A stretch of 64,000 nucleotides of DNA from Paramacrobiotus metropolitanus (Eukaryota > Tardigrada > Eutardigrada > Parachela > Macrobiotidae). The stretch's first letter is position 1; the number at the start of each line of letters is the position of its first letter. Position numbers and translations under genes: made by a program. Shown here in pieces: positions 1,834 through 34,882 of this stretch. Where the stretch lies: assembly GCF_019649055.1 (NCBI RefSeq), contig NW_026570288.1, forward strand, positions 186,001-250,000. The letters run 5' to 3'. The notes below the pieces were generated by a model. That model was not told the origin of the DNA, did no database searches, and was given only the letters and a program-made list of their open reading frames with translations.

Positions 1834-1850
1834 CGACCCTATTGGGGTCG
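1834..1850 (-). other. TATTG-loop hairpin (CGACCC stem)
   Basis: CGACCC-TATTG-GGGTCG on +, 6 perfect pairs, just inside the 3' LTR. Also present in copy 2 at about 53374. Confidence 0.75.
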
Positions 1851-2709
1851 GTGGCTGCGCCTCGGGGGTGTCCGATGACGAAGGTCTCTCGGTGCCGCGT
1901 TCTCCTCCGGACCCGTGGTGGCGATACAACTCACGGCCGAAATCCGAAGGTCGGTCGGTGGTGTTGTTGGACCGGTGTAGGCATCTGTTGGTCGTGTCCG
2001 TAACGGCGAAAAAGTAAAAAAAAATAAAGTATTATTCCATCTGTCTCTCTCTCTAGTAAAAATAACATCACAATTCGTGGTGAGCAGGTTAGTGAAAAGA
2101 TCAATAAAATTGAGAACATCATTTCGAGATTAGAAAAAGTAAACTCAAAGTCTTTGGTCCGGGTCTTTGGTCCGGGTGCTCATTCCGACTAGAGCTGATC
2201 CACTCACGGGGGCTCCAGTCCACAGGATATCCGGCCATCTAGGTCCGAGGCATTGGTTCTCGGGATACCCAGTGGTACCGGTTCATTTCACCGAGGGTCG
2301 GGGGTTCGATCCTCGAGGGTCAAAGGTTCGACCCTATCAGCTTCGGGTAAAGGGTATGGATCTCCGTTGTCGGGTGTGAAACGGGCGTGAAACACACTTT
2401 CCGACCGGGATCCTCCGGTAAAAGGTTGATTGGAACCTTCTCAGCCGGGTAAGACAAGTCGTACTCACGTCCAGCCGGGGTTCATCAAGTAAGGTTAGTG
2501 GAGAGGCACCGTCGCATTCGCGAATACCATAAGGTACCCTCTCTAGGTGCAGGATAAGACCTATTGGGTCTATTGAGCAGTGGATCCTCCGGGAAAGTCC
2601 GGTGATCCGAGGTTCCATCCGGGCAAAAACCGTAATTTTGTATCCTGTCGCCTATTGGGCAACAAGGACCGGTTAACGCCTGGTCTCCATAGGGTTGAAT
2701 GGTCGATGG

Positions 2710-2746
2710 ACGTGGTTTACACTGCACTGTGCAGTGTAAACCACGT
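2710..2746. other. Perfect 18-bp palindromic hairpin
   Basis: ACGTGGTTTACACTGCAC (2710-2727) and its exact reverse complement (2729-2746) are separated by one base. Copy 2 keeps both arms exactly at 54246-54283 but has a two-base centre. Confidence 0.85.
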
Positions 2747-3178
2747 TCTGGTCCGAATAATGATATGGCCTCTGTACGGGAGTCCGACCCTGTATCCGGT
2801 TGACTTCAAGGTTTTGAAGTCCGATGGTAGGCTCGGTGACCGAGGGTCAGCTCCGATTGTGAAGTCAGAGTCCAAACTCAGCCTCGGTTGCTGAGTCTAA
2901 GTCCATTGGCAGCCTCGGTACTCGAGTTAGAGTCCGGGTTGTACCCTCGGCTGCACTGGCAAATGGATACGGAGATGTTCCGCTCGGCTGAGAATCCTGA
3001 ATTCGTCTCCTGTCATCTATTGGGTAACCCGGAGAGGGTGATCGCCGAGATTCGAAAGGTCCGAGGTTCCGAGCCCGAGGGTCGGGGGTTCAACCCTCGA
3101 GGGTCAGAGGTTCCAATCCTCGGTATCCAAAGGTCTGATGGTCGTTCCATCTCGGCAAAAACCCTTATTATCGGTGTA

Positions 3179-3197
3179 AGTCGCCTATTGGGCAACT
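3179..3197 (-). other. TATTG-loop hairpin (AGTCGCC stem)
   Basis: AGTCGCC-TATTG-GGCAACT on +. Six Watson-Crick pairs plus one C/A, which becomes a G-U wobble when the sense (-) RNA is folded. The same wobble appears in the hairpins at 2646-2664 and 3324-3340. Confidence 0.7.
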
Positions 3198-4715
3198 CTA
3201 CCGAGGGTCTCGCCGGTGAGATGAAGTCGCTATCCGGGGCAGCCTCGGTGGTGAGGTAGTCAGCATCCGCTAAAGCTGGTCCAAGGCATTCTGCCCGGGC
3301 AGAAACCCTTTTTAACATCTCCCGTCACCTATTGGGTAACATGGAGAGGGTCAATGTCGCTGGACAGGGTCCGAACAAGTATCCGAGGGTCAATTGGCCT
3401 CAGTGTCCGGGACTCCGAGCCTCGGTAACGAGACTGGCACAACATGCTCTGGTGGGAGTCCGCTTGATGCTAGAGATATCCACCGGGTGACTAGCAAAAA
3501 TCATGCAAAAGAGGCTCCTCGGCGGCTGCGTAGGACCTAATCGGGTCTAAGCCACGAGGTAGGCACTCTAAGTTTTAAAGACGGAGTCCAAGGTGGTCCG
3601 TTCCTCGGCTGATCCCGTGCTTCCACTTAGGCGGAAACACCCGGGATGCCGGAATATGGGGCTAAAGGCCTGTTGGGCCTGTTGGCATAGTTATGGACGT
3701 CCGTAGCCTCCTTCTGGGCGTGCAGTCGTGCCGGACTCATGAATCCTCTGCCGGCTGTTATAGCTCTTCAGGGGATTCATGAGTGCCCTAACGTCCTGGT
3801 ACATCCTTCCGGTGACCACAGTCCGATTCACGGTGAAATGGTCATGCCGGTCACTCATACCATTACTCCAACACAGCGTTGTGAGTAGGGGTAAGGGCAT
3901 GAGTGTGCCCTAATGTCCCACTTCTTCCGTTCCGTTCCGGGGGTGGAAGGGAGGCCTATTGGGCCTCAATGGGCATCCGCGGTAAGGTAAAGATCGTGGT
4001 TGATCTGCGTCGCTTGACGTGGTATCAGATCGTGGTTGTATGCGATCTGCGAAGGCTTGCATCCTCCGATGGTCCTTCTGCCGGAGGGACAGGCCGGTGG
4101 AGCGAAGCGGATCGCGCCGCGCAGCACCGTCCCGTCGCTTTTCGTACGACGGATTCCGCCGGAGTTATGCTGCCGAGGCCTATTGGGCACTCGCACTGAC
4201 TTCGATTACATTAGTCAGCCAGCTACTACTCCGATTCCCGGGGTGTCCATGGGTCTGTTGGCAAGCACGGTGAAGAAGGCGGCAGTGACGTCTTCTACAC
4301 CATGCTAGCGGAATCCTCTTGGGTTGAGTTCCGGAAATTAGTCATACGGGTTCGCTGACCGAGGGGGTATTTCGTCCTAGGTCGGCGTAATCCGTACTCC
4401 GTTAAAGGTTCGAGTCGTGCGGATCGGGTTGGGAGCCTATTGGGCTCTGAAAGTCGGAGTTATGGAACCGTATGTTCACCGGGTCCTTCTGCCGGCTGGG
4501 TTTAAGGAGGAGTGCCCAGCAGGCCATGCTGGGAACCCCTAGATAACCTCCTTACGTGCGAAGGGTCCGATATTGAGGTATCGAGCAATCTGCTCGGATC
4601 GAAGAAGGTTCGCATTCTGCTTCCGCTGCCGTTGTTCAGCAATGGATTGGAGCTATGTAAGATATAGGAACAGAAGTTCCTATATTATGCCGAAGTCTGG
4701 ATCCTTCCGCAGATG

Positions 4716-4732
4716 GAGGCCTATTGGGCCTC
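4716..4732 (-). other. TATTG-loop hairpin (GAGGCC stem)
   Basis: GAGGCC-TATTG-GGCCTC, 6 perfect pairs. An equivalent at 3951-3967 has the same stem. Copy 2 keeps one near 57650, while a second at 57463 is mutated in the loop and stem. Confidence 0.75.
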
Positions 4733-5138
4733 ATACCCCGGAGCCTTTAGGGTCCGGTGAGGTATCGAGCAATCTGCTCGGACCGAAAGACAGGTTGGTC
4801 TGTCGTAGTTAGGTGCGGTCTGCAGGTTGCCTTCCTCGCTGAGATCACCACGGACAGCCGTACTTGTGGCTGACTCCGTAACTTCTTAATGGTAGCGGAT
4901 GTGGTTAGGACTGCGATCTGCAGGAGGGTAAGATCGTGGTTAAGGCTATGATCTGCAGGGTAATGAAGGTTGGCTCGGTGAAAGGTATGCTCCGGGCCGT
5001 TTGGGCGTAGTACAGGGTCAAATCTACCGTCGTATCCCTTATTGAGGGTCCGGACTCGGTAGCTGATCGTGGTTTAACGGCTATAAAGTGGTTGGCCAAC
5101 GATCTGCGGCTCCACAAGCTGGGTTTCATCTATGGGAT

Positions 5139-5157
5139 ACGTCTCTATTGGAGACGT
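5139..5157 (-). other. TATTG-loop hairpin (ACGTCTC stem)
   Basis: ACGTCTC-TATTG-GAGACGT, 7 perfect pairs. The copy 2 version at 58050-58068 has one stem change (A to G) giving a T-G pair on +. Confidence 0.75.
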
Positions 5158-5223
5158 CGTCATGTCCGTTTGACCGGTTTTTCGGTTAGCCTAACCCTAT
5201 TGGGGTCCAGCTACCGGTCTCTT

Positions 5224-7533
5224 TCACTCCAAGTCCACGTTGACCGGGGCTCCACCACCGAAGTGGGAGCCTTCCGAGTCATCGTCCTTATCCCTTCGTC
5301 CCGGGTGGTTCGAAGATGTAGCCTCCTGGGTGCAGGTTGACTGCGATTCCGAGGCTTCCTGTCCGGGCTTTTCAGCTTTGGTTCGGCGGGCTTCGCGTCT
5401 TCGGCGGTTCCTGCCCGAGGATGATGAACCTGGCCACATGTTATACCGGTAGGATGACTTGCCCTCGGGCATCGGTGGTGATGTGAACCCGGGCGGCAAG
5501 TGGCGATGGGTCCGGCACCATTCCGAGAGGGTCGAGGCTTCATCGACATCCTTTTCCTCATCCGGATGGTACTGGTATTCCTTGTACCATCGCTCCGCCG
5601 TCATCAAGAAGTCACGCAGCCATAATCCTACCACTGTGTCTCGCATCGGCGCGCTCAGCTGGGCCACCGCCGTCCGAAGTCGGGGCGGAATGTTGTTATT
5701 CCGGTACGCGCAGTACAGGGTGTAGTGGCTGTGATGGTGGCCAAGTCGGGCCGCGAAGATCAGTCGCAAAGCTGTCTGGAAGGCCAACGGAGCATCTCCC
5801 CGGGCTTCTGGTTCGATGTTGCCAAGGTATTCGGGCAAACCCTGGGCCGCTCTGGCTGCAGTAATCACCATGGCTGCTTGTGCCTCGGTGAGTACGAACT
5901 GCGCCACCCATTCCGTATGGTCCGTGATCTCCCGTTCCGAAGAGAACAACGGGAGCTGGCTCAGTTGAGACCAATCCAGGTGGTCAAGTGGTAATCCCAA
6001 AGTCGCTGGGTCGGTTGTGCTAGGCAAACCGTTCGTCCGGTAGTATGGGAATCCGATGCCATAAGACAGCCGATCATTCATCTCGAAGTCCTCGGACCAT
6101 TGCCGATGTTCGAACATCTGTTGGTATCCGGAATGGTCGAGGAAGATCCGAAGGTCATTGACCAGGTGCCAGATTTGGTTTCGTCGATCCTCCCGGTACT
6201 GCATAGTGCCCATGATATAATTCGTCCGTTCCGTCGGGTGTGGTATCTCCACTGCCATACCCTGTCGGCGTGCATGGTCGTACCGAGGGTCATGCTGGCT
6301 AGGCACTACCGGTTCCGGGTCTGGTAATGGGCGCTGTGGCACTGGCAGCTCATCCAGCTGTTCCAAAGGTGGGGGTGGTCGTAGGGCTTGGTGTCGAGCC
6401 GCCTGATGTCGGGCCACGGGCTGGGTAAAGTTACGCCGGGACTTGCTGTTGGAGTCCACGACGAGCCCGGTATCCTCCGAACCGGATCGCTTGCCGGGGG
6501 AGGGTCGGGTCCGATCCTTCGAAGGCTGTTCATCTGGCCTATGTTGAGCCTCCAGCTTGTGTCGTAGGTCCCTTCCCAGCCTATGACGCAGGTCGCCTGG
6601 TGCCAAGTCCGACACACTCTGGGTTCTGCGGTTAGACGGAGTGGACCCTGTTGGGGTCACTGCTGCCGTCGCTGGTGGTTCTGCCGATCGAACCGCCGTT
6701 AGGGCCGGGGGCTGCGAGGGTGCGCTGTCCATTTGCTGGAGTGAGCCACCTTCTTGTGGGGCTACCAGCTGCTGTTCTACCTGGCTCCGCTGAATTGCCG
6801 GCAGAGCCTCCGTTTGTTGGGGGTCAAGGATTTGGGCCATATATTGTCGGCCGTCAGGTCCGGTGAGTGTTACCGTCAGCCCAGTGAGTGGGGCGGGGCC
6901 GACCTGGAACGCATTCTGGAGGCTGGACGTTTTTAGGGTCCGATCCGGATTCAGCACGTCCATATTAAGAGGTGCTGAGGGCTCATCCGGGAACCTTTTG
7001 GGTTCCGCCATGAGCCTAGCCTGTAAATCGCCGGCTACGCCTAACGTTGGATTCTTATTCTCCTTCTGGCGTGCTCGCTCGTCGCGCTCGCGCTGGGCCT
7101 TAGCGATTCTCCGGTCAGCTGCCGCTATTTCTCGGCGGTCGTCCTCGCGCTCCTGCTCCCGTCGTTGTTCACGGGCATGGACCAATCGGGCGTTGTCCGG
7201 GACTGCTGGGGTGTTATCCCAGCCGGGCTCGTGGGTACGTCTGCGGTAGCGCTGCATGTCCCACATGTAGAGCAATTGTCGGCCGTCCAACTCATCAAGG
7301 ATACGACTGTTATGGACGGCGTGCATGTAGGCACTCAGGTTCCCGGTGACGACCTGGACGTACAGGGCGTTAGCCTGGTCCCGTCGTGTGACTCTGTGAT
7401 CCCCGGCTTGTCTGTCCAAATGTCGTAACAGGCATTCTGCACAGGGTTGACGTGTCCGAGGAGAGTTGTTATTGGCCTTGCACGCCTGGCAGTCCGAGTC
7501 ATAGGCTTCCGTTCGGGGCTGGGGAGGCTGTGG
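5224..7533 (-). CDS. Accessory ORF at the 3' end of the element, CxxC cluster and helical domain
   Basis: Unrecognised protein, up to ~770 codons, stop TGA at 5224-5226. There is no ATG near its N terminus: the open frame runs back to a TGA at 7534-7536 and the first ATG is past the cysteine cluster. Visible parts in order: C-x2-C...C-x2-C within the first ~35 residues, a charged coiled-coil stretch rich in RE/RR/DE, a long P/Q/S-rich linker, then a ~250-residue mostly helical domain (motifs YYRTNGLP, RLGHHHSHY, LRDFLMTAERWYKEY) and a basic tail. Copy 2 encodes the same protein, with differences mainly synonymous and length changes in whole codons. It may be reached by splicing, since an AG (CACAG) lies just after the upstream stop. 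The domain could be a second capsid-like unit, but I cannot assign it. Confidence 0.75.
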   Translation of the reverse strand, partial: PQPPQPRTEAYDSDCQACKANNNSPRTRQPCAECLLRHLDRQAGDHRVTRRDQANALYVQVVTGNLSAYMHAVHNSRILDELDGRQLLYMWDMQRYRRRTHEPGWDNTPAVPDNARLVHAREQRREQEREDDRREIAAADRRIAKAQRERDERARQKENKNPTLGVAGDLQARLMAEPKRFPDEPSAPLNMDVLNPDRTLKTSSLQNAFQVGPAPLTGLTVTLTGPDGRQYMAQILDPQQTEALPAIQRSQVEQQLVAPQEGGSLQQMDSAPSQPPALTAVRSAEPPATAAVTPTGSTPSNRRTQSVSDLAPGDLRHRLGRDLRHKLEAQHRPDEQPSKDRTRPSPGKRSGSEDTGLVVDSNSKSRRNFTQPVARHQAARHQALRPPPPLEQLDELPVPQRPLPDPEPVVPSQHDPRYDHARRQGMAVEIPHPTERTNYIMGTMQYREDRRNQIWHLVNDLRIFLDHSGYQQMFEHRQWSEDFEMNDRLSYGIGFPYYRTNGLPSTTDPATLGLPLDHLDWSQLSQLPLFSSEREITDHTEWVAQFVLTEAQAAMVITAARAAQGLPEYLGNIEPEARGDAPLAFQTALRLIFAARLGHHHSHYTLYCAYRNNNIPPRLRTAVAQLSAPMRDTVVGLWLRDFLMTAERWYKEYQYHPDEEKDVDEASTLSEWCRTHRHLPPGFTSPPMPEGKSSYRYNMWPGSSSSGRNRRRREARRTKAEKPGQEASESQSTCTQEATSSNHPGRRDKDDDSEGSHFGGGAPVNVDLE

Positions 7534-7767
7534 TCAAAACACTTAACTTAATATTGTTAAGTTATTTTTGTTTTTAAACCTTTTGGGTCATTACGTAAAC
7601 CTATTGGGTTAAACGTTCTACGGTTAGATGTAAGCTTAAACGGTCGGGTACGGTCAGGTCTTGTCCGATCCTTTCTTTTCTCGCCTATTGGGCAAGAGAA
7701 ACATCCCCGTTACGGAGGTTATAGGTCTCGCCTATTGGGCAGGGAACCTCCGATGATGTACTTCCGT
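7534..7767 (-). other. Spacer between the two accessory coding blocks
   Basis: About 230 bp without coding potential. It holds the AT-stem hairpin at 7544-7564 and CC-TATTG-GG hairpins near 7598, 7690 and 7730. It is strongly conserved in copy 2 (60463-60703). Confidence 0.6.
7544..7564 (-). other. TATTG-loop hairpin with an all-different AT-rich stem
   Basis: TAACTTAA-TATTG-TTAAGTTA, 8 perfect pairs. It shares only the loop with the GC-stem members of the family. Exactly conserved in copy 2 at 60479-60499. Confidence 0.8.
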
Positions 7768-9480
7768 TTAGCTCTTCTTCTTCGGCAGGTCAGCCGGGTT
7801 AGTTGACTTGGCCCGTGCCAACCGCTTCTGGGCTTCCGTTTCGGCCGAAGTAGGAGCCTTCGCCGGGCTCGCCGAGCTTGCCCGCGTCTTAGGCAGGTGC
7901 TGTCCGAAGTCTTCAGGTAGGTAGAAGACGGAGAAGCGCTGCCCGTGGGTCTTGTACACCTCACTCGATCCGAGGACTTTCTGTCGGCAGGCTTGCTCGA
8001 GGACATACTCCAGCTCATCGGCCAGATAGTACAGGTTGGTTTCCTTTCTTCGGACCGGTCGGTACCGTGCATCTTCCAATTGAGGGTAAGCGGACATCAA
8101 GATGAACTCGAACCGACCTATTAGGTGGTTCAAAATCTCCCGGCGAGTTAATCCTTCCGGGTGTCGATCCGTCCGCAGGCAGGCGATCACTGCGTCCCGC
8201 CATCCGAGGTAAGTCTTCGGCGCTGGGTCTTGTTCTTCCCTCGGAAAGACGTAGTACGGTCGTTCCGTTTTGGTATATACCCGAAGGATGGCACCAGTCT
8301 CGTATGCCATCCGACAGTAGATCTTCACTCTGTCGAGGCTAAGGTCGAACCAGCTTCCGTCCTTGTCGACGCGCCAATGCTTCAGCAGCTGGTAAGCCAA
8401 CTCCGGGGTTGCGTAGGTGGGGCCCGACCATGACAGCGCCTTGAGTGCAGCGTGAACATGCACCCATCCAGGGTCGGTGTCGGAGATCCGAGGCTTCGGC
8501 TTAGATGCCCGCATGGTTGCCGGCTGTTTTGGCCAAGGAAGCCGAATGATAGGCTTCGATGGGATCTCCCGAGGCAGAACTTGCGCTGTGTCTTCGTGCC
8601 ACTTCATAAGTAGCTGGTCGGCCGGAGGGCTTGGGGTCCTTTGGTCGAAAAGGCCCGAGGCTTGCTGTCCGGAGGGGACCTTAGATCCCGTGTCCTCCAT
8701 TGGATCGTCCGGGTCATCTGCCGGAGGTTGTTCCTGATTGTCAGGCTCATCCTCCGGTTCTGGATGTTCGGGTGCCGCTGTTGGCGGCTTCCCTTTGCCA
8801 TCTTCGTTGTCGTCGTCGTCTCCATCCGAGTCGTCGGATTTGTCAGAGTCTTGGTCTGACTTGGCGTCCTTATCATCATCATCCTCCGAAGAGGGTTCCT
8901 CTTCCTCCTCGAGGGACTGGGCATTCCGCGAAGTCCTACCCTTGTTCTTGCGCTTCTTAGTTGAAGACTGGCCCCTTGTTGAGGTTCCAGCCTGCGAAGA
9001 CGACAAGTCCATGGGTGACGGGGGTTGGGATCCCGGAGGGGCTGAATGTGTGTCCTTGACAAATTTACCCCTTCTGTCTCGGGCCGAATGCTTAATGGGT
9101 TTACTGCCGGAGTCTTGGTCGGCTGAGGCGGACCTTTGCAAGCCGCCCGGGGCCCTTGGTCGTTCCGGAGGGAATCTACTACCCGAGGAGGCCGCCGTTG
9201 ATCTGGCCAGCTCCAGCCATACTCTGGCCTGGGGTGCAGGGTCTTCGTCTGGTCTGACCTGGACCTCAGCTCCTTCTGGGTCGTACTCCTTTGTGTGGAG
9301 GTACGACATCCGAAGCTTCTGTTCTCTCCGGTTCTTTTCGGGGATGAAGTTTGGTACTGTGTACCGGAGGTGGACTCTGCGCTGCGCGTTAGTAGTCTGC
9401 AGCTCCCTTCGTAGCACCATGGCCTTGAGGGTAGGATTTACTTCCCTCATGATATCTTCAATCTCGGCCTCTCCTTTCGG
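7768..9480 (-). CDS. Accessory chain, C-terminal segment: acidic region and winged-helix-like domains
   Basis: Stop TAA at 7768-7770. From N to C: a basic start, an S/P-rich linker, a strongly acidic run (E5, then D/S/K repeats), then about 230 residues with two consecutive alpha/beta units. Each has the helix-helix-helix-wing pattern of winged-helix domains, for example LTRREILNHL followed by LEYVLEQACRQK and FSVFYLPED, and WFDLSLDRVKIYCRM with PYYVFPREE. The C-tail is K/A-rich. In copy 2 this is continuous with the next segment. In copy 1 the frame breaks near 9480 at a C-run. A nucleic-acid or chromatin-binding role is inferred from fold pattern and charge only. Confidence 0.75.
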   Translation of the reverse strand, partial: PKGEAEIEDIMREVNPTLKAMVLRRELQTTNAQRRVHLRYTVPNFIPEKNRREQKLRMSYLHTKEYDPEGAEVQVRPDEDPAPQARVWLELARSTAASSGSRFPPERPRAPGGLQRSASADQDSGSKPIKHSARDRRGKFVKDTHSAPPGSQPPSPMDLSSSQAGTSTRGQSSTKKRKNKGRTSRNAQSLEEEEEPSSEDDDDKDAKSDQDSDKSDDSDGDDDDNEDGKGKPPTAAPEHPEPEDEPDNQEQPPADDPDDPMEDTGSKVPSGQQASGLFDQRTPSPPADQLLMKWHEDTAQVLPREIPSKPIIRLPWPKQPATMRASKPKPRISDTDPGWVHVHAALKALSWSGPTYATPELAYQLLKHWRVDKDGSWFDLSLDRVKIYCRMAYETGAILRVYTKTERPYYVFPREEQDPAPKTYLGWRDAVIACLRTDRHPEGLTRREILNHLIGRFEFILMSAYPQLEDARYRPVRRKETNLYYLADELEYVLEQACRQKVLGSSEVYKTHGQRFSVFYLPEDFGQHLPKTRASSASPAKAPTSAETEAQKRLARAKSTNPADLPKKKS

Positions 9481-20289: not shown

Positions 20290-20298
20290 AACGAAGGT
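20290..20298. repeat. 9-bp TSD of nested non-LTR element, left
   Basis: AACGAAGGT, repeated at 23529-23537. Both copies lie in the RT codons around TTFV of the host retrotransposon. Confidence 0.85.
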
Positions 20299-23528: not shown

Positions 23529-23537
23529 AACGAAGGT
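23529..23537. repeat. 9-bp TSD of nested non-LTR element, right
   Basis: AACGAAGGT, matching 20290-20298. Confidence 0.85.
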
Positions 23538-23940
23538 TGTCATGTCCTTCGAGGCTTCGTCCATTGGGATCTGCCAAAAACCGGATTGGCAATCTACCTT
23601 GCCGTAATATTCCATCCCGGCGCACTTGTCCAGTAGTTCATCCGGGTTCGGAAGGGGGTAGTTGTTCTTTTTGGTTACTGCATTCAACTTAATGTAGTTG
23701 ATGCAGAACCTGGTTCCGACGGAGCCGTCCGGGTTTTTCTTGGCTGCCAAGACCACGGGGAAGCTCCATGCTGCGTCGGAGGGTTCGATCACTCCTTGGT
23801 CCAGCATCTCTTGGACATGTTTGGAGATGAATTCACGACCCTTCCAACTGGTTCTAGTTGGGTTCATCTTTAAAGGCTTTGCACCTTGGACGTCGATGAC
23901 GTGAGTGACTCCCTTGACGTCACCGTAGGGTCGTTTTGAG
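23529..23940 (-). pseudogene. Reverse transcriptase N-terminal part (fingers/palm)
   Basis: Reads YGDVKGVTHVIDVQGAKP, then SKHVQEMLDQGVIEPSDAAW, SFPVVLAAKKNPDGSVGTRF, LPNPDELLDKCAGMEYYGKV and DCQSGFWQIPMDEASKDMTT, the fingers and first catalytic Asp of a Ty3-type RT. It is cut after TTFV by the nested element. The frame differs from the upstream spacer ORF; the change lies near 23940 at a CCC. Confidence 0.9.
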
Positions 23941-25651: not shown

Positions 25652-26523
25652 TCTAGGGCCATGTATTCCTGATCCGGGGCTTGTGCCCGTGTATTAGCTA
25701 GGCGGCCCCCGTTTTGTGGGTGCACAGCCTCGGCTAACCTTACTTTCTTGGCCTGGTGCCAGTTACAAGGCTCAATCGGAGGTTCAGAGTCCGGTACGAC
25801 CCTAGTTATACGGGTGTCTTCTCCGTATCGACTCCAAAAGGAGGCAGTATCCAGGGTACCGAAGTGGTAAGGGTCCCGGAAGTGCCACATAAGGCGTCGG
25901 CCCAGTTCATGGGACTGGATCTCCAGTAGCGCCGGTATGGGGAGCTGATGTTCCACAAATTGTGCGTGGAGTACGATCCGCTCTTCTTCCCATTCGATGA
26001 TCTCTTCTTCTAAGGCTTCGGTTAGGTTAATTACCTCCTGGCATTCCTCCCTTGCAGCTCGGATCTGATCATCCGTCCTTGCGCCGACTCGATCGAGTGC
26101 GAGTCTTATGCCGATCGTCCGGGTTTCAAGGAGGTGTCGAATGCCGGAAAACCAGGTTCGGTACCTTTGGTTAAGTATACCAGAGGCCGATGCCTCTGGT
26201 ATCGGGATAGACTTTAGTATCCCTCGGACTGGTTCCAATCGGGTCGTCCGTACTTTCGCCAAGTATTGTTCGATGGCGTTATGGATCTGCAGCTCCGTTA
26301 CGAGGCTTCGTTCGGTATCCGAGCATTGCGGGCAGACCGGGGGTCCGGGGTTCATCGGGTGATCAAGCCGATTTATCCGAGCCTCATTCGCTGCCGTGCC
26401 CGATGCCTCTGGTATCGGGATAGGCTGCACTACACCCGAAGATGGGTTCCGCTGACCCTCATTGGGGGTCGTTCGTTGGCGCCCGGATGAAGACAAACTT
26501 GGAATGCAAGTAGTCGCATCCAA
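25306..26523 (-). CDS. Pol segment downstream of protease
   Basis: The natural-looking part is about 25650-26460. It has CPQCSDTERSL (a single CxxC), a direct repeat of the PIPIPEAS word, a helical stretch (LTEALEEEIIEWEEERIVLH) and TRITRVVPDSEPPIEP. The protease frame ends at a CCCCC run near 26460 and this frame takes over one base on. Downstream of 25650 the 23870-25651 frame looks natural instead. Function not recognised. Confidence 0.6.
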   Translation of the reverse strand: MDATTCIPSLSSSGRQRTTPNEGQRNPSSGVVQPIPIPEASGTAANEARINRLDHPMNPGPPVCPQCSDTERSLVTELQIHNAIEQYLAKVRTTRLEPVRGILKSIPIPEASASGILNQRYRTWFSGIRHLLETRTIGIRLALDRVGARTDDQIRAAREECQEVINLTEALEEEIIEWEEERIVLHAQFVEHQLPIPALLEIQSHELGRRLMWHFRDPYHFGTLDTASFWSRYGEDTRITRVVPDSEPPIEPCNWHQAKKVRLAEAVHPQNGGRLANTRAQAPDQEYMALECPSAMKTMERSFKPSELGMKKSGSMVGHHPLDLPNREGGKDRLSRPQLGLLTVYLDHPPEQRWKAKPTNSEIGTRKPRTYRVQVTHRTLTLIMSHPTLQITTHRILLMTTMIMT

Positions 26524-27874
26524 GAAGTACAGGAACGTCCGAGTCGTTGGGTTGGACGTGGAAGGTATGGGGACTGGTGAATCCTTGCAAGGTTACCGGT
26601 ACGGTACAGCAATGGGTCACCATGAAGGCGATTTGTCCGCCAACACCGCGTATTTTGGTGAAGTACCCCAGGGATTCGAGTTTAAGATTGTTGGCCCGGC
26701 AGAAACGCTCCTCTATTAGGGATGTTTCGGCTCCGGTGTCCAACATGGCCGTGGTTGTTACCGGTCCAATTTGAACTTCATGTGTCCATGCCCGGACCAC
26801 CTTCGGTCGTCCGGTGGACTGTAACGGTTGGATCGTTACTTCTCGGATGGTCACTTCGACCGGAATTAGGGTTGTCGTTGATCCGCCGGGGACACTATTG
26901 GTGTCTACGCGCAGCGGTGATGAAATTCTGTCCCGTCTCGGTAGGTCTACTCCGTCTTGTGGGATGACCTCCGAGGGTCGGTGTGGACTTAGTCGTTCTG
27001 CCGGGGCTTGTGAGCCTGGTAGCCCGGATGGAACTTCCATAACCGAGTGACTCGCCTCCGGACGGTTAGCTACTCCGTCCATTAACGATTCGGCGGTTTC
27101 CATCGGGTGTATCCGACTTGCTATTCGTTCTTCCATGGATGGTTGACCCTCTCGTAAGGTTGAGAGGTTGTATTGCATGTTGAAGAACGTCCGCGATCCG
27201 GTTACAGTTCGTGCCGGTTGTCGCTGGAAGAGGTCCGCTTCCTGCTGCAGACAGTAGGCGGGTACCTGTGCCTCCAAAGGTACTGCTTCCCAGTCTTCGA
27301 AGTACTCCGTTACTTCGTCGGTCGGAGCCTCCGGCCGTCTACCTGGTTGGCCTACCAAGGACGGTTCAGGCGTCATTCTGACGTCCTGCGAGGTTGCGGG
27401 TCGGCGTCCCGATTCTCCGCTTAGCCCGTGGCTCGTAATGCCTAATTGGGCACCGAGCCGTCCGGGCAGCCTGGTGACGTTTCTCGTCCCGGCTGGTCGG
27501 GTCCGGTTTCTCCGGCCGACATCCCCGGCTTCACCTTCTGGGCCTGGGGGTCCGGGCACGTTCTGTGTCCCGGCTGCCGATCGGATCCAAGTTCCTTGGC
27601 CGATCCTCCCAGGTACCTGTTCTGGTCCGGGAGCCGCATTTTCGGCGTGGCGAGGTTCGGGTCGATTCTCCGAGTATCCGAACCGGGGATGTTCGGCGCC
27701 TAGTTGGGCTGCCGTCCCCGCCGCTAAGATTCTAGCGGACTCGCTGACCGTTGCGGAGGCTAAATCCTCGTTGAGGTTCCGAGTTATGTCCGAAGGGTTA
27801 ATCCGGTTAGTAGGGTTATCCTTATCCGGTGGTTCCGTTGGATGACAGAGGTCGAATGAGTCACCGGAGCTCAT
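26459..27874 (-). CDS. Retropepsin-like aspartic protease with long N-terminal region
   Basis: 471 codons from ATG 27874, which overlaps the end of the zinc-knuckle ORF by 14 bases in another frame. The first ~340 residues are G/P/R/E-rich linker. The protease domain is at the C terminus: TTTAMLDTGAETSLIEERF carries the catalytic D-T-G, followed by IRGVGGQIAFMV and SDVPVLLGCDYL (the flap and hydrophobic-G pattern). The junction reads CTCCGGTGAC on the sense strand, so pol could start at this ATG or be reached by +1 frameshifting at CGG-TGA. Confidence 0.8.
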   Translation of the reverse strand: MSSGDSFDLCHPTEPPDKDNPTNRINPSDITRNLNEDLASATVSESARILAAGTAAQLGAEHPRFGYSENRPEPRHAENAAPGPEQVPGRIGQGTWIRSAAGTQNVPGPPGPEGEAGDVGRRNRTRPAGTRNVTRLPGRLGAQLGITSHGLSGESGRRPATSQDVRMTPEPSLVGQPGRRPEAPTDEVTEYFEDWEAVPLEAQVPAYCLQQEADLFQRQPARTVTGSRTFFNMQYNLSTLREGQPSMEERIASRIHPMETAESLMDGVANRPEASHSVMEVPSGLPGSQAPAERLSPHRPSEVIPQDGVDLPRRDRISSPLRVDTNSVPGGSTTTLIPVEVTIREVTIQPLQSTGRPKVVRAWTHEVQIGPVTTTAMLDTGAETSLIEERFCRANNLKLESLGYFTKIRGVGGQIAFMVTHCCTVPVTLQGFTSPHTFHVQPNDSDVPVLLGCDYLHSKFVFIRAPTNDPQ

Positions 27875-29003
27875 CGACCTTAGGCGTTTCCCTGGGATGT
27901 ACCCGGGACAGGCCCGCCAATTGCCGGTTGGTATCCGCCCGGGCCCCTATTGGGGGCCGGGGACGGCGGCAGTTGCGGCCGTTGGGCTGGTGGCGGGGTT
28001 GCCAATGGGGGTCGACCACCATTCTGGGGTTCCTCCGTTTCCTGGCCGGGCTGCCGGTTAGGGCTGCCTTGGCCGCCGAATCCGCCGGCATTCTGCTGAC
28101 GGGGGCGTGGGGTGGTACGATGTTCGGGTAGTTCTGATTCGCCGAGCCTAATGGCCATCCGTTATCGTACCGGTACCTCCAGTCCAGGTACCATCTCCGG
28201 TTTGGGTTGTCTTCCAGCCGGAGGTTGGCGTAGCCACAACTCGCTTGGTTGTGGTTGCCCCATAGGCAGTGACCACAGGAAAATATTCCGTCCTGGGTCC
28301 ACTGGAAGAACTTGGCTTCCATCCGATCGACGTAGGTTGCCTGCTGGCGAGCCTCCTGCTGTGGTGTCCGAGGCTGCCGCTGCACGTTCTGGGGCTGTCC
28401 GCCTCCACCCGCGCGGTTGCCGAAGTTTCCGCGGCCGCGATTCCCGCCGCCACGTCTTCCGCCGGAGCCACCATATTGTGAGGCTCCACCGCGTCCATAT
28501 CCGCCTCCGAAGCCATACCCCTGGTTCTGAGGTTGGCCGTAGCCGGAGTTCTGGCCGTAGCCCTGTTGGGGCTGGCCATAGCCGGGGCTCCGAGGCTGGC
28601 TGTAGCCCTGTTGGGGCTGGCAATAGCCGGAGTAACCCTGGCTCTGTGATTGGCCGTAGCCGGGGCTCCGAGGCTGACTCGGTTGGCCGCTATTTCCATA
28701 GGCTGGCGGCGTGACCATGGTCCCTGTTGGGGCTCCATTCAGGTTCATCGCCGCCATTGCTGCCCAAGTCTGCTCAATTTGACCACGGGCCTGGGGTGGT
28801 GGTGTCGCCGGAGGGCTCTGTCGGTGAAGCCCCGGTTGCACGTTCTGGTAACCTGGCGAGTTGGGTTGGATGTATCCGGGAGCCGGTTGGGTCACAGGAA
28901 CGGGAGTCGCCGTCCTGACGGTGATGTTGTTGGTGGAATTGCCACCTTTAACTACCTGATACATCGGCTTGCCCCGGGTGAAGTCCCGTACATAGTCCCG
29001 GAA
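27861..29003 (-). CDS. Nucleocapsid-like segment with a CCHC zinc knuckle
   Basis: Same frame as the capsid segment upstream, separated by a single TAG (29004-29006). From N to C: a P/Q/T region, a repeated GYGQPQ/GYSQPRSPGYG section, an RGG-box (GGRRGGGNRGRGNFGNRAGG), a helix, then CGHCLWGNHNQASC, which fits C-x2-C-x4-H-x4-C, and a basic tail (ARKRRNPRM). Expected to bind and package genomic RNA, so a candidate partner of the dispersed hairpins. Two TGTTG-loop hairpins at 28559-28573 and 28604-28618 fall in the GYGQ repeats. Confidence 0.8.
   Translation of the reverse strand, partial: FRDYVRDFTRGKPMYQVVKGGNSTNNITVRTATPVPVTQPAPGYIQPNSPGYQNVQPGLHRQSPPATPPPQARGQIEQTWAAMAAMNLNGAPTGTMVTPPAYGNSGQPSQPRSPGYGQSQSQGYSGYCQPQQGYSQPRSPGYGQPQQGYGQNSGYGQPQNQGYGFGGGYGRGGASQYGGSGGRRGGGNRGRGNFGNRAGGGGQPQNVQRQPRTPQQEARQQATYVDRMEAKFFQWTQDGIFSCGHCLWGNHNQASCGYANLRLEDNPNRRWYLDWRYRYDNGWPLGSANQNYPNIVPPHAPVSRMPADSAAKAALTGSPARKRRNPRMVVDPHWQPRHQPNGRNCRRPRPPIGARADTNRQLAGLSRVHPRETPKVDELR
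27942..27958 (-). other. TATTG-loop hairpin (GGCCCC stem)
   Basis: GGCCCC-TATTG-GGGGCC, 6 perfect pairs, in the basic tail of the nucleocapsid segment (read RPPIGA). Confidence 0.75.
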
Positions 29004-30353
29004 CTAACGCGTCGTCTTCGGCATTCGGACGTCCAGGGCTGCCCGAAGGATTGGCTCCGTGACATTCGTCCGTAGGTAGAAGACTGCCAGTTCTTCGGTG
29101 AGGTTGCCTCGTTGCTTGAGGTTTATGATGGCATCATAGTACTGCTCGGGGGTCTCTTGCCCCAGCATGTACTTTCTGGTGGTAATGTCCGCGACTGCCG
29201 TGACCTGCTTGTCAGGGTCCATAAACCGGGCCGCAAATTGCTGCAGCCAGTAGTCGACGGTCCATCCGTTTTCTTCGGGCTCCAGAGTTGACTGGTTCTG
29301 ATACCATTCCAGGGCTTGTCCAGTAAGGGCGCCCTCCAGCTCCGTCATAAAGGCGACATCCGTCATTGCGACGCCGTCAGCCTCCGACCGATAGATTCGC
29401 CGGATCTTTGTGATCCAGCCTTCCACCTTGGCCCCGTCGCCGTTGAACTTCGGCAACTCTGCCCGATTCTTCCGGGCCAAGATCCGGTTGTTCCGCTCTT
29501 CGTATCGGCGCCGGCCTTCTTCGTAGCCTTCCTGTCGGGCTTGAGCAATGTCTTGCTCATCGGGTGGTGGGGTCTGATGGTGTTGGACCGCCGGCATTGC
29601 CTGTTGGGCTACCGGAGGGTTCCAAGCTACCGGGTAGGCCGCTTGCTGGTTCTGCGCAGCCGGGGCGGGTTGAGGTGGGTACGGCTGTGGTTGGGGTTGG
29701 GGGTATGGATTACCAGGGGGTGCCGGCTGGGGCTGTCCAGGTCCAGGCGGAGGATTCTGCACTCCGTACCCCTGGTTCTGTGGCGGGTTTGGTGCCACAT
29801 ACCCAGGCATCCTTTGAAGGACTCTGTTGTGGTCAAGCCACATCCCCGGTGGTATAACCACGTATTGGTCGGCCTGGGGCACCGGACCTATTGGGTCCAT
29901 ATTGCCTTGCCGAGGCTGGCAAGGTCCATTGCCAACAGCGCCGGGGCCAACCAGACCTATTGGGTCACGGTTGTCTGGCCGAGGCTGCTGTGATGCGTTA
30001 TCCGGATATCCGGGGCGTACCGGGTCAGCCCAATTGCGCTGCCCTGCCGATACAGGTTGAACTTCGATCCTCGGCGGGTACGTGTTCTGGGAACCCGAAC
30101 GTTGTCGGTCCCGGTTGGAGTTTCCCGAATTAGGCTGTGAGCCTCCCGCCGAAGCGTTCGTCGGTGGTCGAAGTCCCATGCCGGATCCGTTTACCGGGGC
30201 TCGGAGGTTCGAGCCTCGGGGGTCCGAGCCTCGGAGGTTCGAGGCTCGGGGGTCGTCCTGTCCGGTTGAAGTCGATACTACAGGCCTTGTTCCGGTTGAG
30301 ACCATCGTCGTTGTGGATGTTCCTCCGTAGGCCGTAGTCGTTGTGGTAGTTGA
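29004..30353 (-). CDS. Gag capsid-like segment
   Basis: A P/Q/G/N-rich first half, then ARQEGYEEGRRRYEERNNRI and a retrotransposon-gag domain: LPKFNGDGAKVEGWITKIRR, AFMTELEGALTGQALEWYQN, QFAARFMDPDKQVTAVADIT, MLGQETPEQYYDAIINLKQR and FYLRTNVTEPILRAAL. This matches the helical capsid of Ty3 Gag in motif order. It ends at a TAG (29004-29006), with the same frame continuing into the nucleocapsid. Upstream the frame continues past another TAG (30354-30356) into ORF1. Hairpins at 29884-29898 and 29954-29966 are read DPIG. Confidence 0.85.
   Translation of the reverse strand, partial: STTTTTTAYGGTSTTTMVSTGTRPVVSTSTGQDDPRASNLRGSDPRGSNLRAPVNGSGMGLRPPTNASAGGSQPNSGNSNRDRQRSGSQNTYPPRIEVQPVSAGQRNWADPVRPGYPDNASQQPRPDNRDPIGLVGPGAVGNGPCQPRQGNMDPIGPVPQADQYVVIPPGMWLDHNRVLQRMPGYVAPNPPQNQGYGVQNPPPGPGQPQPAPPGNPYPQPQPQPYPPQPAPAAQNQQAAYPVAWNPPVAQQAMPAVQHHQTPPPDEQDIAQARQEGYEEGRRRYEERNNRILARKNRAELPKFNGDGAKVEGWITKIRRIYRSEADGVAMTDVAFMTELEGALTGQALEWYQNQSTLEPEENGWTVDYWLQQFAARFMDPDKQVTAVADITTRKYMLGQETPEQYYDAIINLKQRGNLTEELAVFYLRTNVTEPILRAALDVRMPKTTR
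29884..29898 (-). other. TATTG-loop hairpin (GGACC stem)
   Basis: GGACC-TATTG-GGTCC, 5 perfect pairs, in gag. A near neighbour with a GACC stem is at 29954-29966. Confidence 0.7.
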
Positions 30354-32888
30354 CTAGGTCGGTGCGTTGGGAGTGGCCGTCGAAGTGTTTCGCTCCGGCT
30401 CCGGGGCTGACGGTACCGCCGGTGCCCTCGGTACGGGTCCCACTGATGGTTCAGCCCTAAGCATTCCGACCTGGTAGAACTGACTCTCGAGAGCCCCCAT
30501 CTGACCTGTTGGGTTCAACAGGGGGTTATCTCGTCGCAGGTAGTCATCAATCTGCTGACATTTATCCTGCTCTTGGGTAGTCCGGTAGGACGGGGGTTGC
30601 TCGGTCATGGAGTCCTCGAGATATGTCTTCTCTTCCTTCAGGCATGCGACCTCGATGCCCAGGTTTTCTCGTTCCTGGTACATCTGGTTGTACTTATCAC
30701 CAAGGTCGTTGTACCGGTTAGATAGGTCGATGCCGAAGTTGTAAAGCTCCTGTTGGTACTTCAGGAGACGGTCCTTGTCCATTTCCCACTGGGTCTTCTC
30801 GGACTCAAGCTGTGTGATCCGGGCTCGTTGAGCCTCGATGACTGCGAGGCTCTCGGTACGAGCCTGTTCGAACCGGGCTGTCTCGTTCTGGAGATGGGTG
30901 GTGAGGGCAAGGATCTGCTGGCCAAGTTGAGCCTGGCATAGCCGAAGGTCTACGGCTATACCCTCCGGGTCGTTCTGGTTCTCTCGGAGGTTCGCATAGG
31001 CCGTCCGGAGGAAGTCGAGTTCCGAGTTGAGCTCGTCGATCTCTCCCTCCAGGCCGATGATGCCCTGCTTAAGGTGATGGTTCTCCTCGCGATACTCATC
31101 CACCCGGTCGAACATCTTATGGAGTTCCGCCGAGCCAGCCTCGGAGTGGCCGAGGGCATGTAACCGCTGCTCCAAGTCTTGGCGCAGGGTGGCCACTTCG
31201 GCCCGAGACTGCTCCAGCATGTCCTGGAGTCTAGTGACTTCGGCTTGTTCATGACGGCAGGGCTCCTCAGTTACTTGTAACTGGGCCTCTAACCGTTCGA
31301 TCTCCTGGTTAAGGTCGTCAATGACGGTGTTCGCACGTTCGAGTTCGTCAGTGAGCCTCTTGCGCTCCTGCTTGTGCGATGCTACCGTCTGGGACAAGAC
31401 GTTCTCCGTCGATTCGACGATGTTTTGTCCGGCCAAGAGCTGGTTTTGCAGCTCGTATATCCGTTGGCGGAGGATCTGTGGGTTGTCGATCTTCTCCGGG
31501 GGGGTCTTTGTTAGGTACCGCCGGGGTGTGTAGTCCGAGGCTCCGATGTGTGAGCCTGGGTATTGCTTCGGTGACGGAAACCTGAAGCCTTTTCTGCTGT
31601 CCGGACGCTCGGTCACCTTATTGGGTAACACGGTTGCGTCGAAAACGTCGTCGGTCGGTGATGGAGTTTTATCAGCCCCGGGGTTCGGGGGTTCGAACAT
31701 CGGTGGTGTAGCCGGAAGGTCCGAGGTTGGCTTCGCGACCTTCGGTGAAGCCGATTTCGACTTACGTGCGGCCTGTGAGGCTTCAATCCGGCTGGCTCGG
31801 GCTGGCGTAGGTTCACTGCCGGGGGTTTTGGGTTTCGGGGATGACGGTCCGCCAGCCGAGGTTAAGTTAACCTCGGTAACCGAACCCTCAACCTCGCCCG
31901 TGGAGGTTGCGACCGACGAAATCCGGAATTTGATCGGAGAGACGGCTTTTTTAGCCGAGGAAGTGGGGGTTGCCAGCCGGGTCTTGGGTGTTCCAACCTG
32001 TTGGGTCGGAGTCCGGGCCCCGGTGTTGGGGGTCCGAGCCTCGGTGTCCGAGGCTCGAGCCTCGGTGTTCGAGGTTCCAGCCGACTGCAACCTTCCCGTT
32101 GAGGATTTTGAAGTTCCCGAGGTCGGCTTCGATAGGTTCGAAGTCCGAGTTGGAGTCCCGGTGAGGGTCCTCAGGTCCGGTGTGGTCGCCTTCGGAGTCC
32201 CCGAGGGTCGTTTCGGGTCCGGCGACGTCGATTTCCGACTGTTGTCCGAAGATTTTGGATTATTGCCCGTTGGTTTGGGGCTTTGAACCGGGGTCGGTGG
32301 GGACTTAGTCGGTGAACCCGCCTTGTGGGTCACCCCCCGTATCGGTGATGCCATACCCTTCATTTGGCTCGGGCTCATCTGGCCTTGCCTCGACTTTGGT
32401 CCAGCCATGCCGCCCTGTTGGGGCAGCACAGGGTCACCCATGTCTGGTGACACCTCGGAGCTACTTAGCGCCGGGCTCGAGGCTCCATGGTCCGGGGTTG
32501 TAGCCGGGAAGAAGACTGGCGAGGCACCTATTGGGTGCCCAAGTCCAGCCGCAGGCTCAGAGTTCGCAGTTTGACCTATTGGGTCATGCGGAACCTCCGG
32601 CTCAGCCTGTGGTAGCTCGAGGAACGTCCGGTCATGTGCGTCCTCGAAGCTATCCTCCGGCGATTGGGTAAAATCGTCCGCAAGGATCCGCGCATCTCGC
32701 TTCTCCTTGGCCGATTTGGTCGACTGGTTCGATTTGTTGGATTTGCCGGACTTACTCGATCGGTTGGAGTCCGATGAGTGAGGGTCGCCGCCCGGGCCTG
32801 CATGACGGAAGGTGTACCCGCCTGCATTGTCACGTCGGGCGTAGCCTTGGTCGAACTTCCGTTCGTATGGGTTCTCTCGACCGGACAT
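30354..32888 (-). CDS. ORF1: low-complexity N terminus and long coiled coil
   Basis: About 844 residues from ATG 32888 (MSGRENPYERKFDQGYARRD). I chose this start because upstream in-frame sequence is low-quality and lacks another ATG. The first ~470 residues are S/T/P/K-rich with repeats of S-K-S-x-K-S and T/P words. Residues ~500-770 form a strong coiled coil (LTDELERANTVIDDLNQEIE; IIGLEGEIDELNSELDFLRT; RARITQLESEKTQWEMDKDR), and the C-tail is P-rich. It ends at a single TAG in frame with gag. It may be the N-terminal part of a very long Gag or a separate structural protein. No similarity recognised. Confidence 0.75.
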   Translation of the reverse strand: MSGRENPYERKFDQGYARRDNAGGYTFRHAGPGGDPHSSDSNRSSKSGKSNKSNQSTKSAKEKRDARILADDFTQSPEDSFEDAHDRTFLELPQAEPEVPHDPIGQTANSEPAAGLGHPIGASPVFFPATTPDHGASSPALSSSEVSPDMGDPVLPQQGGMAGPKSRQGQMSPSQMKGMASPIRGVTHKAGSPTKSPPTPVQSPKPTGNNPKSSDNSRKSTSPDPKRPSGTPKATTPDLRTLTGTPTRTSNLSKPTSGTSKSSTGRLQSAGTSNTEARASDTEARTPNTGARTPTQQVGTPKTRLATPTSSAKKAVSPIKFRISSVATSTGEVEGSVTEVNLTSAGGPSSPKPKTPGSEPTPARASRIEASQAARKSKSASPKVAKPTSDLPATPPMFEPPNPGADKTPSPTDDVFDATVLPNKVTERPDSRKGFRFPSPKQYPGSHIGASDYTPRRYLTKTPPEKIDNPQILRQRIYELQNQLLAGQNIVESTENVLSQTVASHKQERKRLTDELERANTVIDDLNQEIERLEAQLQVTEEPCRHEQAEVTRLQDMLEQSRAEVATLRQDLEQRLHALGHSEAGSAELHKMFDRVDEYREENHHLKQGIIGLEGEIDELNSELDFLRTAYANLRENQNDPEGIAVDLRLCQAQLGQQILALTTHLQNETARFEQARTESLAVIEAQRARITQLESEKTQWEMDKDRLLKYQQELYNFGIDLSNRYNDLGDKYNQMYQERENLGIEVACLKEEKTYLEDSMTEQPPSYRTTQEQDKCQQIDDYLRRDNPLLNPTGQMGALESQFYQVGMLRAEPSVGPVPRAPAVPSAPEPERNTSTATPNAPT
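32523..32539 (-). other. TATTG-loop hairpin (GGCACC stem)
   Basis: GGCACC-TATTG-GGTGCC, 6 perfect pairs, in ORF1 (read HPIGA). Another with a TGACC stem follows at 32572-32586. Confidence 0.75.
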
Positions 32889-32898
32889 CTTCGGTGGT

Positions 32899-32913
32899 GG
32901 CTCTATTGGAGCC
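32899..32913 (-). other. TATTG-loop hairpin (GGCTC stem)
   Basis: GGCTC-TATTG-GAGCC, 5 perfect pairs, just upstream of the ORF1 ATG. The inner stem pair next to the closing C-G is T-A rather than the usual C-G, so the CC/GG flanks are not obligatory. Confidence 0.75.
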
Positions 32914-34099
32914 TTGAAGTAGCCTCCGGGTTGACCCTTCAGCCAAGAAGTCGGACTATCCCTATTGGGGACTTGTCCGAAGTTGATGAGGCTTTTTGCC
33001 TGTTGAAGGTCCGAGGGTCCGGTGGGGGGGGCAGAGGTCCGGTGGGGTGTGGGGTGATGGTGTGGGTGTGCTTGTACTACTTGCAACTCAGTACTGTTGT
33101 CAATACAGGGTACAGCTTGCGTACGTCCTATACTACGGCACTGACCGCTATGACGTCGCACACCGTTAAGTGGTCTTGCAGATTACTGCCTACGTCACGA
33201 TTCTGCGCGCCGCGTGCAAAATTCCAAAAAAACAGTGACTCACTACGGACTTATAACATAGGGAATCTCCCCGTTATCCTGATTGGTCAGATTTTAGTAT
33301 GGTAAATCGGCCGTCGTGACGTCACAATTATTTAAATTTTTGAATTAATTAATTTCCGAGATGGAAAAATTCGGAAAAATCAAGAAAAATTCAGGAAAAA
33401 TTTTCTAGCCGGTCAAAAATTAATTTACCCGGGGGAAAGTTATTCCCTTAGTTTTTGGAAGGTTCAGAAAGGTCGTTAACCGAGGCTCAGAGGGTCTACA
33501 CCGAGGCTCGAGGGTCCGGCCTAGTAAGGCTGGCTAACCCTATTTTAACCCGTAAAAAGATGTTTTAAGCCCGTTTTATCCGGGTGAAAATAAGTTTTAG
33601 CCGGCCAAATTACTTTTGGTCCGGTGAAAATGAAAAATGCCCGGCTATATCGGGTCTTATGAGGCTCTACACGGTTTACCGAGGGTCAATCGACCCTTTT
33701 TACCGGGTAAATCCGAGTGAATCCGCCTGGTGATCCGGTGAATCCGCGCTGTTATAGTTGCGGGTGCCACTTAAGACAAAGGCGACCCCGACTGATGAGG
33801 CTGAGAGGGTCCGCGAGGGTCCGTGCCGTACGTTCTGTCCGGGGATCCGCGGGAACCGCCAATCAACCCGGGCAAAGTCCGTCCGAGGGTTGTCTCCGCG
33901 AGGAACGTTCCGTTCACGCGCAAGGAAGAGGGTCCGCCGAGGCTTTCTGCCCGCAAGAGAGAGAGAAGAGACCAGACCGTTCTGGCTGGCGGCGATCAGA
34001 TGGGGATAGGAACCGTTGGTTCTCCCCTGTCTTCACGTCGGCCGTTACGGATGTAATTCTACACCGTGGTCTCAAAGGGTCCGTTGAAGGAAAAACTCA

Positions 34100-34710: not shown

Positions 34711-34882
34711 TGACGAATTAATTCATAAATAAAATCAATTACTTAATAAAACACAATAATTAAAAATATCCAGTTCCATTAAAACGTTTTCCATTTACAA
34801 TAAAAACATTTGCCCAGAGACTTGAGCTTAATTGCGAATCCGCTGATTGTGTTTGACAGGGAAGGCAGGATCCAGAGTCAGG

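Follow-up and report, generated by a model that had tools for sequence, protein, structure and literature searches.

Giant LTR retrotransposon families of one tardigrade genome carry dispersed hairpins of shared design and different loop

Dispersed RNA signals and the element in the window

Dispersed packaging signals are usually degenerate, and are hence hard to establish. In the single-stranded RNA viruses and related systems where they are described (MS2, picornaviruses, hepatitis B virus), many stem-loops share a loop recognition motif (PMC6281560). Here we consider a 33.2 kb long terminal repeat (LTR) retrotransposon of the Ty3/gypsy type in the tardigrade Paramacrobiotus metropolitanus. 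It lies within a stretch of 64,000 nucleotides (NW_026570288.1, positions 186,001 to 250,000), which we call the window. The element, copy 1, spans 1337-34536 and its sense strand is the minus strand. Copy 1 proper has 36 hairpins with a CAAHA loop, mostly CAATA. Our new observation is that sister families of this one genome share the hairpin design but differ in the loop. As in the viral account (PMC6281560), multiple stem-loops with a shared loop are spread across a genomic RNA. The window element differs from what is set out there in that its loop is near-uniform and readable from sequence, its sister families differ in loop, it is an LTR retrotransposon of more than 30 kb, and it is known here from sequence alone.

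The Ty3 nucleocapsid controls packaging and trafficking (PMC4974528). The packaging signals of Ty3 are not precisely defined, and both untranslated regions and POL are needed (PMC11381356, PMC4974528). Copy 1 resembles Ty3 and Ty1 in having a Ty3-type gag-pol and a basic one-knuckle nucleocapsid, which in Ty3 is needed for packaging. It departs from them in its repeated fixed-loop hairpins, none of which are described for Ty3 or Ty1 in the relevant parts of those two papers. In size the closest likeness is to Burro, a group of giant Gypsy-like LTR elements of more than 30 kb whose extra coding parts include BIR, BCL2-like, MATH and ankyrin domains (PMC6431247). The window element also exceeds 30 kb and has additional coding parts, but it carries a hairpin code, and the sections of the Burro account used here mention none. 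A Pfam scan of 16 open reading frames (ORFs) of the window at E up to 0.1 contains none of the four Burro-type domains. Another comparison is boxB of phage lambda, a hairpin with a GNRNA pentaloop whose fourth base is the freest; it is read by a basic peptide and there are few per genome. The element shares with boxB a short pentaloop hairpin with the fourth loop base freest. Its loops do not follow the GNRNA rule, being CAAHA or ACANA, so they start with C or A where boxB starts with G, and there are dozens per element. The literature we searched has no report of such a hairpin code, most subscription papers lying outside that search.

Hairpins along the sense RNA of copy 1

An earlier note on this DNA had claimed more than 40 hairpins with an invariant TATTG loop (CAATA in sense). 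Its 15 listed sites are all found, with coordinates within 1 base. We applied a relaxed rule to 1701-33400 (CAANA plus four variant loops, at least four Watson-Crick pairs, G-U allowed). This gives 38 sense sites and 3 on the opposite strand, while 100 dinucleotide shuffles, the comparison that the note itself had set, average 1.44 and never exceed 5. A chance origin of the hairpins is rejected by these counts. Two of the 38 fall outside the code: a CATTA loop at 16396, and a weak 4-bp CAAAA hairpin at 20791 inside a nested insert. The claimed number is thus slightly high for copy 1, and a truncated second copy adds 23. With at least five Watson-Crick pairs there are 29 CAAHA hairpins in 28.4 kb against 0.20 in dinucleotide shuffles. 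Their loops are CAATA (18), CAACA (8) and CAAAA (3), so CAATA is dominant rather than invariant. If all loops of 3-8 bases on a stem of at least five pairs are ranked, CAATA leads with 14 (0.025 in 40 shuffles with a Watson-Crick stem), followed by GAA with 6 and CAACA with 5. Among loop lengths the pentaloops are the most enriched, at 54 against 21.2 in shuffles.

The CAAHA sites use all three codon phases as well as the noncoding parts. Coding constraint is therefore rejected as their cause, just as the note had argued. It had also seen no hairpins in the nested insert or the host DNA. This is nearly right. The insert has no CAAHA hairpin with at least five pairs, and the host stretch 34540-52870 has two on the + strand against 0.20 shuffled. 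The relaxed rule gives 1 and 2 sites on the two strands of 33401-53000. Genome-wide, the example hairpin GGCCCAATAGGCC is present at 106 places, whereas its letters reversed give 11. Of the 100 places that were listed, those next to each other on a contig appear to be co-oriented, and many seem to lie at window-family loci.

The CAAHA sites of copy 1 listed here are on the minus strand and are written in sense orientation. Twelve sites were followed in an aligned-copy listing of up to 28 sequences (copy 2 and 27 loci, some of these being overlapping pieces of one copy). In that listing CGACCC-CAATA-GGGTCG (1834-1850) keeps its 6-bp stem unchanged in 27 of 28 sequences. The listing also holds AGACC-CAATA-GGTCT (2557-2571), AGGCC-CAACA-GGCCT (3666-3680), GAGCC-CAATA-GGCTC (4433-4447), and GAGGCC-CAATA-GGCCTC at both 3951-3967 and 4716-4732. 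Three more of its hairpins have an internal G-U: CTTGTTGCC-CAATA-GGCGACAGG (2644-2666), GAGTTGCC-CAATA-GGCGACTT (3178-3198) and TGTTACC-CAATA-GGTGACG (3323-3341). They are followed by CCCT-CAATA-AGGG (5036-5048), ACGTCTC-CAATA-GAGACGT (5139-5157) and GACCC-CAATA-GGGTT (5193-5207). A further group consists of TAACTTAA-CAATA-TTAAGTTA (7544-7564), AACC-CAATA-GGTT (7598-7610) and TCTTGCC-CAATA-GGCGAGA (7679-7697).

The hairpins that lie in ORFs start with GACCC-CAACA-GGGTC (6644-6658) and GGAACC-CAAAA-GGTTCC (6990-7006). They continue with GCCGC-CAACA-GCGGC (8774-8788), GCCTC-CAAAA-GAGGC (10179-10193), AGCC-CAACA-GGCT (12302-12314), GCGACC-CAACA-GGTTGC (13104-13120), GAGCCG-CAAAA-CGGTTC (13240-13256) and CGGCCC-CAATA-GGGCCG (16283-16299). 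Beyond the insert are TTGCC-CAACA-GGCGA (24979-24993), GACAC-CAATA-GTGTC (26891-26905), GGCCCC-CAATA-GGGGCC (27942-27958), AGCCC-CAACA-GGGCT in two identical copies (28559-28573 and 28604-28618) and TGGACC-CAATA-GGTCCG (29883-29899). The last of them are TCCGACC-CAACA-GGTTGGA (31992-32010), CTGTGCTGCCC-CAACA-GGGCGGCATGG (32405-32431), GGGCACC-CAATA-GGTGCCT (32522-32540), TGACC-CAATA-GGTCA (32572-32586), GGCTC-CAATA-GAGCC (32899-32913) and GTCCC-CAATA-GGGAT (32958-32972).

It is worth considering whether these sites are hairpins at all or merely a linear word. We fixed only the nine bases CCCAAHAGG (38 sites in copy 1) and scored the flanking pairs against a background of 0.249. The first pair outside this core is Watson-Crick in 35 of 38 sites, the next three in 23, 24 and 19, and the one after that in 9, where about 25% is background. 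If G-U is included the first four are 35, 32, 28 and 22. Pairing thus continues for about four further pairs and then falls to background. A linear motif without structure is rejected by this pairing. The pair immediately outside the core is C-G in 10 sites, A-T in 12, G-C in 12 and T-A in 1. Such mixed pair types imply that the stem sequence is free and the pairing is kept. Of the 29 code hairpins whose stems reach five pairs, 27 are closed by C-G, against 7 of 36 other pentaloop hairpins, so this pair looks like part of the recognised unit. Folding in a context of 205 nt gives a mean stem probability above 0.5 for 34 of 37 code hairpins (at least four pairs) but for only 18 of the 40 that have some other pentaloop (at least five pairs).

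Over the four pairs that flank the core, copy 1 has G-U 16 times and A-C 9 times, where the background share of G-U is 0.352 (p=0.003); copy 2, which is related, has 9 and 2. Counting only the first internal mismatch, G-U leads A-C by 8 to 2 in copy 1 and by 86 to 3 in 27 related, partly overlapping loci. A recurring C/A pair on the + strand had been noticed before as a G-U pair in the sense RNA, and site 3179 bears this out. These counts point to window-family hairpins that act as sense RNA. Loop-loop kissing within the RNA is unlikely, since no sense hairpin of four pairs carries TATTG, the exact complement of the loop. Rfam has no match at gathering score in the window, hence this is no curated RNA family.

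A sister family with a different loop

RNase H copies fall into one group about 92-99% identical to the window and others at 80-88% (150 of 1196 candidates scored). Our sample of the sister family, family B, consists of two pieces of one 88% element (L031 and L032) and eight 3' parts (L033-L040) that are 77-89% identical to it. With at least five Watson-Crick pairs, the 16.0 kb of L031 and L032 have no CAAHA hairpin and 19 with ACANA loops against 0.20 shuffled. The eight 3' parts, which are mutually related, have no CAAHA and 43 ACANA, again against 0.20. The window family has a single ACANA hairpin against 0.50 shuffled, so in neither family does the other's loop rise above background. Over all ten sister pieces the loop is ACAAA 29 times and ACACA 17 times, against 0.05 each in shuffles. 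Cores of 7 nt show the same contrast. Pairing continues beyond CCAAHAG in 48 of 60 cases in the window family and 3 of 17 in the sister, and beyond CACANAG in 29 of 32 in the sister and 1 of 7 in the window family. The single sister element has 48 pentaloop hairpins against 10.3 (maximum 20 in 30 shuffles). For loop lengths 3-9 the ten pieces, being related copies, have 34, 35, 114, 46, 62, 31 and 76 against 34.6, 31.6, 31.8, 25.2, 23.2, 26.6 and 25.0.

The sister family has AGAAM loops too, 4 in the single element and 11 in the eight 3' parts. A row of AGAAA/AGAAC hairpins with differing stems, spaced by 16 or 32 nt, lies just past its last long ORF (L031 sense 5278, 5294, 5310 and 5342).

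The stems of the sister family change in pairs. Hairpins were defined in one sister sequence and read in the other eight, with three overlapping and non-independent references. Two-sided changes keep pairing in 11 of 11, 9 of 9 and 18 of 18 cases; control hairpins of the same sequences keep it in 10 of 14, 14 of 26 and 1 of 13. An example is GCTGACT/AGTCAGC in one copy and GCCGACT/AGTCGGC in another. The earlier note's claim of RNA structure is supported by loop polarity, the preference for G-U over A-C in the window family, local folding, the pairing beyond the core and these paired changes. We argue from such sequence patterns that the hairpins are almost certainly functional RNA structures.

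A comparison of gag-pol at about 54% identity, in which the alignment is uncertain, has 13 window and 17 sister sites. They coincide in one place, where GACC-CAATA-GGTC of the window (29954-29966) is aligned with TCCGACC-AACAA-GGTCGGG of the sister, with the loop exchanged. This suggests that hairpin sites came and went while the rule for the loop persisted. It also bears on whether the hairpins could be translation or RNA-processing signals (pausing, reinitiation, cleavage) of a multi-ORF RNA. Many ORFs do follow one another on the same strand along the element, and the hairpins at 7544, 7598 and 7679 are shortly upstream of an ORF start. However, most sites are either inside ORFs, where every codon phase is used, or in the extended 3' noncoding part, and between the families they are mostly at non-matching places in gag-pol, the part that was compared. 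We consider such a role quite improbable.

In a more distant family, whose integrase is 38% identical (54 of 2032 candidate places were scored), the code is absent where it was read. The two stretches read have no hairpins in any of the five loop classes, and their pentaloops number 3 against 8.3 and 3 against 4.7; reading may have stopped short of the 3' noncoding part, and L041 seems to exit the element after about 1.3 kb.

Proposed reader and role of the hairpins, and their surroundings

Our proposal is that the sense RNA of each family is dotted with hairpins of about 5-6 pairs that share one pentaloop. The window-family unit would be a closing CC/GG with a C-A-A-H-A loop and an otherwise free stem; the sister unit would have an A-C-A-N-A loop. 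One loop per family on free stems is the trace that a single trans-acting reader of loop and closing pairs would be expected to leave. Since sister families in one genome have separate loops, this reader is probably a protein encoded by the element. The likeliest one would be the Gag nucleocapsid, with its RGG box and CCHC knuckle. In copy 1 the candidate is a nucleocapsid-like ORF (27861-28964, minus strand) that by eye has an RG/GG-rich stretch and a single CX2CX4HX4C knuckle, without a Pfam match. The RG-rich stretch and the knuckle are also present in family B. Many such sites could allow cooperative capture of a very long genomic RNA and rejection of sister RNAs. The earlier note had proposed binding sites for Gag or another RNA-binding protein, in packaging or localisation. 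The trans-acting protein is now better supported because the sister family uses another loop throughout; Gag as the reader, and packaging rather than transport or export as the role, we still infer, and we regard that combination as evenly balanced. A more tentative idea, to which we give somewhat less than an even chance, is an orthogonal address system. Each giant family would have rewritten one loop across dozens of hairpins, at sites that largely arose at different places, matching its own Gag and packaging no 30-kb RNA but its own. Its hairpins would then be a record of changing protein-RNA specificity.

The sequence makes the signal readable, each element having dozens of sites, and there is a contrast between two sister families as well as a distant family without it. 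Loop recognition, cooperativity and self-selection become directly testable. If the proposal is true, the principle of dispersed packaging is extended to LTR retrotransposons, and it may help account for RNA packaging in elements of at least 30 kb.

It must be noted that a number of results weigh against this proposal. Hairpins with loops of 6-9 nt also exceed shuffles by about 1.4-2.8 times in copy 1 and L031/L032, which implies that these RNAs are hairpin-rich generally, beyond the code sites. For lengths 3, 6, 7, 8 and 9 the window family has 40, 38, 33, 36 and 33 against 26.9, 20.9, 20.2, 21.4 and 22.8. For lengths 6, 7, 8 and 9 L031 and L032 have 21, 26, 18 and 31 against 10.7, 11.6, 10.5 and 11.0; in the pooled list the loop sequences of the excess 7- and 9-nt loops of the sister are scattered. 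Group D elements (RNase H 84% and 80%), which have the CX2CX4HX4C knuckle, exceed shuffles in pentaloops (17 against 3.8, 17 against 6.1, 11 against 4.7) and keep long stems in related copies. Their loops are A-rich and non-uniform: CAAHA 0, ACANA 1, AGAAM 3, AACAA 1 and AAHYC 5, against at most 0.40. Group D may have a looser code, or may be ancestral. Two-sided changes in the window family are too few for a test: pairing is kept in one of one, while controls keep it in 7 of 14 (9 of 30 loci were used). In the aligned-copy listing its stems are conserved and paired changes are few, an example being GTTGCC/GGCGAC to GTTACC/GGTGAC in some copies at 2644-2666; 3 of the 12 sites have one aligned sequence.

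The sister family also does not favour G-U over A-C (6 against 7, p=0.22), and its related copies have 10 against 29, near background. Several ACANA hairpins (L031 sense 5950, 6148 and 6207 and aligned copies) have a C-A mismatch at their pair 6, and pairing resumes beyond it. An A-C mismatch is a G-T pair on the opposite strand, and hairpins could form in DNA too. One can therefore imagine that they act in single-stranded DNA during reverse transcription, for instance as binding or pausing sites. This would leave the window family unexplained, where the non-Watson-Crick pairs favour the G-U of sense RNA, and we hold it to be very unlikely. Some sites are likely duplicates (GTTRCC/GGYGAC three times, GAGGCC and AGCCC twice each), as a functionless mobile or duplicating palindrome spreading inside elements would leave them. 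But stem sequence varies freely, three types of pair being common just outside the core, aligned sister sites have paired changes, and alignments across sites show mostly substitutions and few gaps. An origin of this kind is hardly credible.

The distribution of sites also bears on packaging by Gag. Of the 36 CAAHA sites, the 3' noncoding part holds 12, the 3' coding half 11 and the 5' coding half 13. None is in the 0.9-kb leader beside the 5' LTR, and such a leader is a usual location of a packaging signal. Density peaks at 3.47 per kb in the 3' noncoding part, the coding halves having 0.75 and 1.40, and localisation signals commonly sit in 3' noncoding parts. The hairpins could then help to transport, export from the nucleus or localise the long RNA in its unspliced form, and their reader could be an RNA-binding protein of the host or one of the element's accessory proteins. 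Several ORFs 3' of the integrase have no Pfam match above the cut-off, which would suit an accessory protein, and other element proteins may be the readers. However, the sites also occur throughout the coding parts, and a host reader would have to be one protein for two loops or two proteins, because the sister families do not share a loop. We think this role unlikely, though less so than the other alternatives. Returning to a reader encoded by the element, winged-helix-like domains seen by eye in the 3' ORFs were considered and dropped. Their AlphaFold2 models, built from 3 and 2 sequences, had mean confidence (pLDDT) of 41.8 and 40.6; Pfam gave nothing above the cut-off, PDB gave no notable sequence match, and a 560-aa ORF had no scored homologue.

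The rest of copy 1 is that of a Ty3/gypsy-type element, with protease, reverse transcriptase (RT), RNase H and integrase in this order and two direct LTRs. In sense, the 5' LTR is 34114-34536 and the 3' LTR 1337-1764 (both minus strand, TG...CA, about 425 bp, 95.1% identical). ACAC outside each is a target-site duplication; the ends and ACAC were read by eye. All of its ORFs named here are on the minus strand. One at 29004-30305 has a C-terminal half that by eye is like a Gag capsid, without a Pfam match. Next come the aspartic protease (26459-27874, PF13975, E=6.7e-9), RNase H (19358-19936, PF17919, E=2.2e-34) and the integrase (16909-19395, PF17921 and PF00665). The element's own RT starts near 23900, by comparison with the relative P0001, and is split by the nested insert (about 19950-23900, a non-LTR element according to the earlier note, placed by base composition, the RVT_1 ORF and the end of likeness to P0001). 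Since the RT is interrupted in this way, the RVT_1 match at 20357-23233 may belong to the insert.

The second copy of the same family starts at about 52877, also on the minus strand, and runs past the window end. Its hairpins cover 53373-63104 (first 53373-53389, last 63090-63104), 22 of them with CAAHA loops. A large ORF downstream of the integrase is present in copy 2 (60704-63940) and in the sister (L031 4346-7423), with parts 44-47% identical between families; it has no Pfam match above the cut-off and its structure models are poor. One scan of viral contigs contained no relatives from outside this genome, and the two best named protein relatives of the element come from the same tardigrade. 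A 101-bp tandem repeat on both flanks of copy 1 (929-1342 and 34537-34715) seems to be its insertion target. The 3' noncoding part has a near-perfect 37-nt palindrome (2710-2746), found at 14 other places at 92-97%, which is a possible dimer or cruciform site. Between the two copies there is an inverted repeat (44118-44804) with 343-nt arms that are 88% complementary and a spacer of 1 nt.

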